A stretch of 64,000 nt of DNA from Variovorax paradoxus EPS (GTDB taxonomy: Bacteria > Pseudomonadota > Gammaproteobacteria > Burkholderiales > Burkholderiaceae_C): NCBI RefSeq assembly GCF_000184745.1, contig NC_014931.1, forward strand, positions 310,001 through 374,000. Direction: 5' to 3'. The notes below the pieces were generated by a model that made no database searches, was not told the origin of the DNA, and saw only the letters and a program-made list of their open reading frames with translations. Positions 7,207 to 9,074 of this stretch are shown one piece after another. The position numbers and the translations under genes are program-made. How positions within the stretch are numbered: position 1 is the stretch's first letter; each line of letters begins with the position of its first letter.

Positions 7207-8928
7207 TCATGCTCTTGCCAGTGCGCGGTCGATGGCCGCACGGATGTTCGCAGGTGTGGGTTGCCGCCAGCGCGCGCACACATGCTGGTCGGGCCGCAGC
7301 AGGTAGACGGTACCGGGTTGCGCGTCGTAGCGCTGGGTGGCGAGTTCGCCTTCGGGCGTCGTGCCTTGCACGCGCACGATGTGCAGCGGCGCGTCGAAAG
7401 CCTTCAGCACCTCTGCACTGCGCTCGGCGGCTTCGCCCGCGCCGAAGACCAGTGCAGTGAACTGCTGGCCATGGCATTCGCGCAGCAGCCAGCCGGTGCT
7501 TCCGTCGGCTCGCACGGCCGGCGCATCGGCCGCGGCAGCGCCCGGCACCATAGCGCCCTTGAAGGCGTCGGCATCGACCGTGTTGAGCGGCGAATCGCGC
7601 AGCACCGCCGGCACCGAGAGCCGCCCGCTGTTGACCAGCGTGCGCGCGAACGCATGGCGCTTGGTCAGTTCCAGCACCGCGTCGCGGAACAGGCGGCTCA
7701 CCTCGCTCTTGGGCGTGATGAAGTCGGTCGCACGCGTGGAGTGGCGGATGTTTTCGTCTGCCGCGTATTCGCGCTCGCTCGCGTAGCTGTCGAGCAGTGC
7801 ATCGGGCGCATCGCCCTTCAGCACGGCAGCAAGTTTCCACGCGAGGTTGTCCGCGTCCTGCACGCCCGAGTTGGCGCCTCGCGCGCCGAAGGGCGACACG
7901 CCGTGCGCCGAGTCGCCCGCGAACAGCACGCGGCCGTGGCGAAAGCGCTCCATGCGCTGGCAGGCGAAGGTGTAGACGCTGGCCCAGCCGATCTGGAACT
8001 GCACGTCCGCAAAACCGATGCTGTCGAGCAGCGCGCGCACCCGCGGCGTGATGTTCTCGGGCTTGCGCTCTTCCACCGGGTCGGCGTCCCAGCCGAGCTG
8101 GAAGTCGACGCGCCACATGCCATCTGCCTGCTTGTGCAGCAGCACGCTCTGGCCCGGGTGGAAGGAGGGGTCGAACCAGAAGCGGCGCTCGGTGGGGAGA
8201 ATGTCGCCCCCCACGCTCGGCACTTCGTGTCCTCGCTGCCCCCCCGAGGGGGGCGCGTCCGCCTTGGGGCGGCCCGGCGGCGGACCGGCATCCATCGTGA
8301 TGTCGGCGATCAGGAAGCGGTCGCGGAAGGTGCGGCCCTTGGCCTCCTGGCCGAGCAGCTGGCGCAGGTTGGAACGCGAGCCATCGCAGGCGGCGACGTA
8401 GCCGGCCGCTAGTTGATAGTTGCCTTCGGGCGTCTCGACCGTGAGCACCGCGCCTTCGTCGCGCTGTTCGATGCCCGTCACCTTGTTGTTCCAGCGCAGG
8501 TCGATCAGCGGCAGCGCGGCGGCACGTTCGACGAGGTAGCCCTCGACGTAGTACTGCTGCAGGTTGATGAACGCGGGCCGCTCATGGCCGGGCTCGGGCA
8601 GCAGGTCGAAGCGGTAGACCTGCTCGTCGTGGAAGAACACCTTGCCCACGCTCCACGAGACGCCCTTGTCGACCATGCGGTCGCCGCAGCCGAGGCGGTC
8701 GAACACTTCGAGCGAGCGCTTGGCAAAGCAGATCGCGCGCGAGCCGCTGGAGAGGGTGTTGTCGTTGTCGAGCAGCACGACAGGCACCTGGCGCAGCGCG
8801 AGGTCGATGGCGAGCGTGAGGCCGACCGGGCCGGCACCGACGATCACAACGGGGTGATGAGCGGGGGGCGCTGCGTCCTGGTCGGCGTGGCGGCGGTAGT
8901 CGAAGCGCAGACTTTGATAGTCGATCAC
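7207..8928 (-). CDS. FAD-dependent aromatic monooxygenase, probable 3-hydroxyphenylacetate 6-hydroxylase large subunit
   Basis: This 573-residue flavoprotein belongs to the PheA/TfdB/MhpA class. It shows the ADP-binding VVIVGAGPVGLTLAI motif at residues 27-41 and the second FAD motif around VLFAGDSAHGVSPFGARG, and has a thioredoxin-like C-terminal region. A GTG start at 8928 is chosen because GGAG precedes it and no ATG lies in frame nearby. Next to a DUF2783 gene, hmgA and fahA it likely hydroxylates a monohydroxyphenylacetate to homogentisate; substrate is inferred. Oddity: residues about 215-244 (Pro/Gly-rich) interrupt a conserved stretch that resumes at PTERRFWFDPSF, and their DNA is palindromic. 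Confidence 0.88.
   Translation of the reverse strand: MIDYQSLRFDYRRHADQDAAPPAHHPVVIVGAGPVGLTLAIDLALRQVPVVLLDNDNTLSSGSRAICFAKRSLEVFDRLGCGDRMVDKGVSWSVGKVFFHDEQVYRFDLLPEPGHERPAFINLQQYYVEGYLVERAAALPLIDLRWNNKVTGIEQRDEGAVLTVETPEGNYQLAAGYVAACDGSRSNLRQLLGQEAKGRTFRDRFLIADITMDAGPPPGRPKADAPPSGGQRGHEVPSVGGDILPTERRFWFDPSFHPGQSVLLHKQADGMWRVDFQLGWDADPVEERKPENITPRVRALLDSIGFADVQFQIGWASVYTFACQRMERFRHGRVLFAGDSAHGVSPFGARGANSGVQDADNLAWKLAAVLKGDAPDALLDSYASEREYAADENIRHSTRATDFITPKSEVSRLFRDAVLELTKRHAFARTLVNSGRLSVPAVLRDSPLNTVDADAFKGAMVPGAAAADAPAVRADGSTGWLLRECHGQQFTALVFGAGEAAERSAEVLKAFDAPLHIVRVQGTTPEGELATQRYDAQPGTVYLLRPDQHVCARWRQPTPANIRAAIDRALARA
8197..8286. repeat. Palindromic repeat inserted in frame within the monooxygenase coding sequence
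   Basis: This 90-bp stretch inside the monooxygenase gene contains strong GC palindromes (a C-run, GAGGGGGG and a nearby CCGCCTTGGGGCGG), unlike the flanking coding DNA. It encodes about 30 residues rich in Pro, Gly and Asp that sit between MDA and PTERRFWFDP. It resembles intergenic repeats I associate with Comamonadaceae genomes, but this is recalled and not searched. The reading frame stays open through it. Confidence 0.65.
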
Positions 8929-8961
8929 GTTTGTCTCCGTGTCTTTTGTCTTTGTCTTGCT

Positions 8962-9058
8962 CCTTCCCCCTTTGGGGGAAGGTTGGGATGGGGGCGAGCG
9001 GCGCTCGAAACCGGCGCTCTGCCTGCCCCCACCCCAGCCCTCCCCCAGAGGGGGAGGG
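8962..9058. repeat. Paired GC-rich palindromic intergenic repeat (copy B)
   Basis: Two palindromic units (8962-8982 and 9038-9058) flank a spacer that begins with GGGATGGGGGCGAGCGGCG. Organisation and sequence match copies A (3124-3235) and C (33750-33859). It lies between the MBL-fold gene and the monooxygenase gene on the same strand, so it would form a hairpin in any common transcript. Confidence 0.85.
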
Positions 9059-9074
9059 AGCAAGGCAGGACCGA

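Follow-up and report, generated by a model that had tools for sequence, protein, structure and literature searches.

Dispersed palindromes that sit in frame in unrelated genes and encode tens of residues are described for Rickettsia (the RPEs) and Wolbachia; these inserts lie in solvent-exposed parts of proteins and recur at the same site in orthologues (passages of PMC10969869 and PMC3767692). Intragenic REPs of the GTAG/CGTC type are reported from Opitutus terrae, Thioalkalivibrio, Thauera and Xanthomonas in sections of PMC3733652, more than half of them as dimers or groups, encoding 20–30 residues and often located in DNA-repair genes (uvrA, UvrD/Rep helicases). The same sections place REPs mostly between co-directional and convergent ORFs, their ends often supplying the stop codon of flanking ORFs, with uni-REPs near the upstream stop and at a variable distance from the next gene. 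MITEs with coding capacity (ERIC, BOX and others) are short, non-autonomous and at times fused in frame (a portion of PMC10969869). An earlier note on the DNA studied here, made from its letters alone, cited Rickettsia for in-frame palindromes; the citation stands, but the intragenic REPs of Opitutus, Thioalkalivibrio, Thauera and others widen it (PMC3733652, in part). First seen as a Rickettsia peculiarity, in-frame palindromes gained hosts with the REPs, and we now add free-living soil bacteria.

The element described here, from Variovorax paradoxus EPS, is like the RPEs in kind, being a dispersed palindrome that lies inside ORFs and leaves the frame unbroken (24 of 110 copies). It differs from them in its hosts (Variovorax, Polaromonas and Caldimonas, not Rickettsiales), in its composition and setting (~79% GC, 75–90 bp, in GC-rich free-living β-proteobacteria, where it is scattered on the gene tree) and in the start/stop-overlapping mini-ORFs of its between-gene copies, which go unmentioned for RPEs in the passages of PMC10969869 and PMC3767692 cited above. 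With REPs it shares the in-frame intragenic position and an occurrence in uvrA (sections of PMC3733652); it differs in lacking the GTAG tag, in its few opposite-strand settings (4 of 110, with 17 further copies unassigned) and, against the variable spacing given for uni-REPs in those sections of PMC3733652, in mini-ORFs whose ends mostly fall no more than 12 nt from the next start (42 of 61). Like coding MITEs, as a portion of PMC10969869 presents them, it is short, non-autonomous and able to form in-frame fusions; unlike them, it showed no parental transposon in a search for Y1-type transposases and no constant terminal inverted repeat, its arms being complementary but variable. Among the matches listed, we found no description of the element in the open-licence PMC literature on Variovorax/Comamonadaceae repeats or on palindrome-linked translational coupling, and the sole mention of Variovorax in the relevant part of the RAYT paper PMC2817692 concerns resistant isolates. 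In-frame palindromes as such are already published; what is new here is an in-frame palindromic repeat widespread in one GC-rich β-proteobacterial family.

An in-frame palindromic insert in a monooxygenase gene

The window (the whole 64,000-nucleotide stretch of the EPS genome analysed here) contains the following features at this locus.

7207..8928, minus strand: FAD-dependent aromatic monooxygenase gene (573 aa, GTG start, NCBIfam NF006002)
8200..8286, minus strand: in-frame palindromic insert, 87 nt of foreign DNA encoding GPPPGRPKADAPPSGGQRGHEVPSVGGDI, delimited by aligning filled and empty relatives
8257..8285, minus strand: hairpin 1 of the element, arms GTCCGCC / GGCGGAC, which vary by copy and remain complementary
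8205..8255, minus strand: hairpin 2 of the element, outer stem CGCCCCCC / GGGGGGCG, almost invariant among copies

Between the codons for MDA and TERRFWF the filled gene has 93 nt, against 9 nt in close empty relatives, and the net gain over empty alleles is 84 bp (28 codons). The filled protein reads GPPPGRPKADAPPSGGQRGHEVPSVGGDILP across this interval, where most relatives have two or three residues (for example, QLP or DLP); the inserted stretch has no stops and the frame is kept. The palindromic in-frame stretch that the earlier note placed at 8197–8286 is thereby borne out, the filled/empty alignment agreeing with it within a few bases. The insert folds as two adjacent hairpins whose arms are complementary across copies, but as a single strand it is no more stable than dinucleotide-matched shuffles (z = +0.75), so folding stability is no evidence for the palindrome. 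We dropped single-strand folding as proof and replaced it with arm complementarity across copies. An Rfam search gave 25 matches with E values of up to 1, of which none reaches its family's gathering score and none overlies the insert; 23 of the 25 fall on a neighbouring repeat (8946–9074).

The monooxygenase matches NF006002 with 843 bits in two stretches, the better of which covers residues 245–573, and the Pfam match to PF01494 (FAD_binding_3) runs across the insert. Its closest named relatives are annotated as Variovorax 3-(3-hydroxyphenyl)propionate hydroxylase or FAD-dependent oxidoreductase (MhpA-like). Modelling of the loop, a check proposed in the earlier note, places the insert in a turn with pLDDT below 50. 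The AlphaFold2 model of the filled enzyme, whose predicted translation includes the stretch GPPPGRPKADAPPSGGQR, has a mean pLDDT of 82 and a pTM of 0.85 (34-sequence alignment), and its predicted fold resembles that of known flavoprotein monooxygenases, among them RslO9, PieE and HbpA. The low values span residues 217–245, flanked by strands at 197–213 and 248–253; here low confidence and disorder are not separable for certain, because the insert is present in few of the aligned sequences. The model suggests that the insert occupies a low-confidence, probably disordered turn, a place where 28 extra residues could be tolerated, and that the filled enzyme probably still works.

Filled and empty alleles coexist in close relatives

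A genus-wide search of 101 genomes returned the monooxygenase gene in 77 at E ≤ 1e-20, our own genome included. Seven match through the insert and 70 match only the part after it; the DNA of 23 of these 70 was read, and all 23 are empty. Strains without the insert, which the earlier note had suggested looking for, thus exist in number. With the filled alleles in 7 of 77 genomes and the recurrence of the element elsewhere, they support its central proposal, that a dispersed palindromic repeat had entered the gene with the frame intact. Of 80 contig loci retained from 345, four carry the insert, in Variovorax 770b2, in a Variovorax MAG, in Polaromonas jejuensis and, as a degenerate form, in Caldimonas mangrovi. 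Among protein relatives, 6 of 121 are long at the insert site and 115 of standard length (best 120 of 7988 matches, our own protein counted twice).

On a gene tree of 99 distinct sequences (insert columns removed, a quick method, 38 weakly supported forks), the nine carriers need at least eight gains or losses, and branches with strong support force seven of these. Shuffled carrier labels need a mean of 8.8 changes, and 101 of 500 shuffles are as low as observed; the insert is therefore not clustered on the tree. For four carriers the nearest rows are empty and 94–98% identical outside the insert. The earlier note held that the same residues in unrelated bacteria would count against an insertion, and something of the kind is seen, a similar insert in P. 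jejuensis and a degenerate one in C. mangrovi at the same spot. The tree rows nearest to these two carriers are empty, which argues for repeated gain or transfer and not for ancestral residues.

Four carriers (G000, 770b2, G059 and G010) have near-identical inserts, and placing them in one clade is rejected (p-AU 8e-10). The inserts of these four differ by 4.3–6.5%, their genes by 8.8–13.0%. Three of the four share the right-junction bases GTGGGGGGC[G/C]ACATTCT, and 770b2 has these with one T for G change. The insert-plus-junction sequence is private: 3 of 152 tested loci match (some places counted twice), all of them the monooxygenase itself (L047, L230 and L232), and none of the 149 others does.

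In the 39 nt upstream of the insert, G000 and G010 are identical to their closest empty sisters (39/39), and 770b2, G059 and G010 differ among themselves by 0–1. There 770b2 and G059 differ from most empty relatives by 3–6 and from one by 1. Within 60 nt downstream the carriers resemble their own sisters again, so any transferred tract would be only tens of bases long. Sequence comparison thus makes one insertion, spread by short-tract homologous recombination, the most likely source of the near-identical insert in four scattered lineages. The G093 insert lies about four codons further on in the same loop, with CCCGAG on both sides; its different position and its own flanking repeat argue for at least one further independent insertion there. 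Three filled loci (L156, L157 and L158) have Asn right after the insert (NERRFW), the empty alleles alongside having Thr or another residue (TERRFW and similar). The Asn is perhaps a trace of a common recombination tract.

A dispersed element with complementary, variable arms

Repetition in the genome, another check raised in the earlier note, is confirmed by 15 matches at E ≤ 1e-3 in our own genome (this copy included), some partial and to related variants; a 15-base core with at most one mismatch finds 28 matches, against 2 for a reversed control pattern. Twelve Variovorax genomes hold from at least 3 to at least 43 copies each at E ≤ 1e-7 (up to 40 candidates scored per genome). Across the family, at least 163 of 200 sampled genomes and at least 120 of 141 genera have matches (four candidates scored per genome).

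Individual elements are ~75–90 bp long with two hairpins side by side, and the consensus from 110 copies is ~75 bp with 79% GC. Hairpin 2 is nearly constant; hairpin 1 combines a constant loop, GCCGGGCCGCCCCAA, with widely varying arms. In the 108 of 110 copies that could be parsed, a mean of 5.8 of 9 arm positions pair, compared with 3.7 with swapped partners (maximum 4.06 in 200 swaps). For the 75 distinct arm pairs the mean is 5.9, compared with 3.8 for swapped partners and a highest value of 4.2 in 500 swaps. Across loci L215–L324 the arms differ strongly from copy to copy and keep their complementarity, perhaps by compensatory change or perhaps by being made so at insertion. By eye, no arm copies the target DNA in the monooxygenase or hrpA.

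Tandem pairs occur at a spacing of 84–91 bp. The hrpA gene of G005 (L188) carries two head-to-tail copies that keep the frame and lengthen the helicase. A ~60 bp variant lies at gene starts (L049, L051, L053, L055, L061, L064, L066 and L067); by eye it runs ATGAGCGCNGCGCCGGGCCGCCCCAAGCAAGC...GGAGGT...ATGA or near it. It forms a mini-ORF of ~22 codons (MSAAPGRPKQARTAVRSTEVFQ and similar) with its own Shine–Dalgarno-like sequence, ending in the ATGA of the next gene.

Copies inside genes mostly keep the reading frame

We classified 110 copies from 12 Variovorax genomes (30 loci from the element search and 80 fetched in order from its listed matches) with a codon-usage model trained on the window. 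Some copies already known (for example, the in-frame ones in G000 hrpA, G005 hrpA and the G008 monooxygenase), second tandem members and later matches stand outside this set. By a refined rule, 61 copies lie between co-directional genes, 24 are in frame, 16 are one-sided and 4 lie between genes on opposite strands; of the remainder, 3 are ambiguous because a downstream-frame stop falls within the element, 1 is a frame conflict and 1 fits none of these. The rule replaced a first one (24 of 110 in frame, 55 on the same strand in a different frame), which miscalled gene ends because it demanded flanks free of stops all the way to the element. Each rule yields 24 in-frame copies, with 20 in common and 28 in the union. 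L223, L246, L259 and L286 are in frame by the refined rule only; L229, L253, L270 and L273 by the first rule only, being one-sided under the refined one.

Open frames alone prove little, because the element has 79% GC and half of shuffled copies (50%) are stop-free in all three forward frames. In-frame copies exceed the third expected were frame of no importance (binomial p = 6e-11 for 24/25 and 1.6e-8 for 24/28). Copies at orthologous sites are not independent, and grouping those with similar flanks reduces the 110 copies to 75 clusters and the 24 in-frame ones to 15. The excess persists at cluster level (p = 8e-7 for 15/16 and 6e-5 for 15/19). The flanks of the frame conflict, L254, are homologous to those of the in-frame L223 and L259, and L254 appears to be either a broken copy or a miscall; the ambiguous L287 also clusters with in-frame copies.

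The 24 first-rule copies fall into 16 gene families across the 12 Variovorax genomes, so the insert is no single odd event. The families are the monooxygenase (3), Edd phosphogluconate dehydratase (2), a LuxR-type response regulator (2), ImuA, HrpA (2), GlnE, UvrA (3), an M16 peptidase, PEP carboxylase (2, two sites), an AA_synth protein, an FdhF-like oxidoreductase, NarG, an MdtB-like RND permease, a YheT-like hydrolase, CcsB and Rep. Profile searches covered 22 of the 24 loci (L230 through P0001), leaving out L215 and L232 (same gene, other genomes). At 17 of the 22 the family profile spans the insert, or matches in two stretches of which the better (the one whose limits are shown) abuts it. 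At the other 5 (the response regulator twice, M16, FdhF-like and CcsB) one side is matched or two different domains flank the insert.

Sites also recur. The hrpA gene was matched in 57 of 61 searched genomes; 4 of 30 loci read are filled between HFAS and PAPII (G000, G013, G074 and G005), and the other 26, among them one that is longer by a few residues, are unfilled. The hrpA of G106 is also filled (L283). In Edd, judged by eye, two species have a copy at roughly one position. In UvrA, the in-frame copies of three genomes (L249, L312 and L316) lie at different sites.

Most copies between genes form predicted coupled mini-ORFs

For 61 of the 110 copies, the gene upstream is co-directional and reaches its stop codon before the element or at it. 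In 55 of them a frame through the element is opened by an ATG, GTG or TTG start codon lying −8 to +12 nt from this stop, and 32 of these starts overlap the stop in the −1 arrangement (ATGA or GTGA). Overall, 42 of the 61 are coupled (next start in frame within 12 nt), 10 are fused to the next gene, 3 are neither and 6 have no mini-ORF. Equal use of phases predicts ~18 'neither' against the 3 seen (p = 8e-7, copies taken as independent); by flank cluster, 45 groups divide into 29 coupled, 8 fused, 2 other, 4 with none and 2 mixed. The mini-ORF peptides differ by copy, because both orientations and several frames are used; what is kept is that translation could run on without a break. From their sequences, surviving copies mostly look ribosome-readable. 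Gene finders will list the mini-ORFs and the extended proteins as though they were ancestral.

Origin and spread of the insert

We hold it highly probable that the insert is a copy of a dispersed two-hairpin repeat, which behaves as a small, mobile, non-autonomous element and whose surviving copies can be read by ribosomes. Filled and empty alleles at the same codon, repetition of the element, frame conservation and mini-ORFs are direct observations. Copies would land widely across the genome, and selection would remove those that shift the frame as well as those that leave an untranslated hairpin inside a translated operon. Surviving lengths would then fit their context, as a multiple of three inside genes and, between genes, as a mini-ORF that ends at the next start or fuses with it. 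The predicted structure of the monooxygenase offers a turn that may take 28 disordered residues. The four similar inserts would stem from one insertion followed by short-tract recombination, and the G093 copy from an independent insertion in the same loop.

An insertion in an ancestor of the monooxygenase, lost many times since and without recent mobility, would account for the same codon being filled in several Variovorax lineages, in Polaromonas and, degenerately, in Caldimonas, as it would for hrpA being filled at one spot in 4 of 30 loci. We think it unlikely: the insert would have to have been lost many times, each time precisely and in frame (at least 8 changes for 9 carriers in 99 rows), the inserts of the four scattered carriers have diverged less (4.3–6.5%) than their genes (8.8–13.0%), and the G093 insert sits at another position with its own flanking repeat. 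Repeated independent insertion at a hot spot, set by an enzyme's site preference or by this being the only tolerant loop, has better prospects, though we still favour recombinational spread. At least two insertion points in the loop (G093 and the rest) and distinct insert sub-types fit a hot spot, as do the reused hrpA site, the roughly shared position of the Edd copies of two species (by eye) and the identity of G000 and G010 to their closest empty relatives at 39/39 upstream bases. What tells against it is that four scattered lineages have private junction bases in common, absent from 149 other loci. That the insert is a functional loop of an enzyme subfamily (for catalysis or oligomerisation), its likeness to the repeat being secondary, seems very improbable. 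The carriers read do keep the frame without stops, but 70 of 77 same-genus genomes have no match through the insert, relatives 97–98% identical outside it among them; moreover, the insert is predicted at low confidence with no fold and the same DNA is present in unrelated genes.

As to how the element moves, its size, hairpins, dispersal and tandem pairs are REP-like, and a Y1_Tnp gene is present in 11 of the 12 genomes (13 genes), as would suit a REP-type repeat mobilised by a RAYT (Y1/HUH) transposase. We judge this improbable too. No element copy lies within 1.5 kb of any of the 13 Y1_Tnp genes in these 11 genomes, so RAYT as mobiliser is not supported; G074 has copies without a Y1_Tnp match; and the exact forms GTAG or CTAC occur anywhere in just 2 of 103 copies. 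CGTC or GACG is found somewhere, at any position and not only at a hairpin end, in 48 of the 103. Inspection by eye shows direct repeats on both sides of only some copies (for example, CCCGAG at G093), and no transposase (Y1-type only being searched) or transposition event was seen among the analysed copies.

Filled and empty alleles in close relatives make it possible to compare one enzyme directly in two states, with its selfish-DNA loop and without it. Copies between genes point to a broader principle, that a copy survives only if it can be translated, and to a way in which coupled mini-ORFs may originate. More tentatively, and with considerable doubt, the element may represent a family-wide class of translation-transparent mobile palindromes that persist mainly where ribosomes pass, as protein fusions or coupling mini-ORFs. 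Were this so, the element would be a source of new protein loops and of new coupled mini-genes, and the variable, self-complementary arms of hairpin 1 would fit a mobility mechanism in which sequence is copied into the element's own stem, or else a need for the hairpin at the DNA or RNA level.

A second repeat next to the gene

A larger, imperfect palindromic repeat lies at 8957–9062, between the monooxygenase and a neighbouring gene that we take, from its sequence, to be metallo-β-lactamase-like. It has at least 60 matches in its own genome, both strands counted, and served as a control. It is GC-rich as well, and 5 of its 29 loci, in other genomes, also came out as in frame, which makes it a weaker control and tells somewhat against the main reading; every one of the 5 sits in a single gene linker (L344 = L356, which are one place, L345, L347 and L365), in what is presumably a molybdenum-hydroxylase/cytochrome-c fusion gene. 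The control repeat is found in opposite-strand gene settings at 8 of 29 loci against 4 of 110 for the element, and is coupled to the next start at 3 of 14 against 42 of 61.
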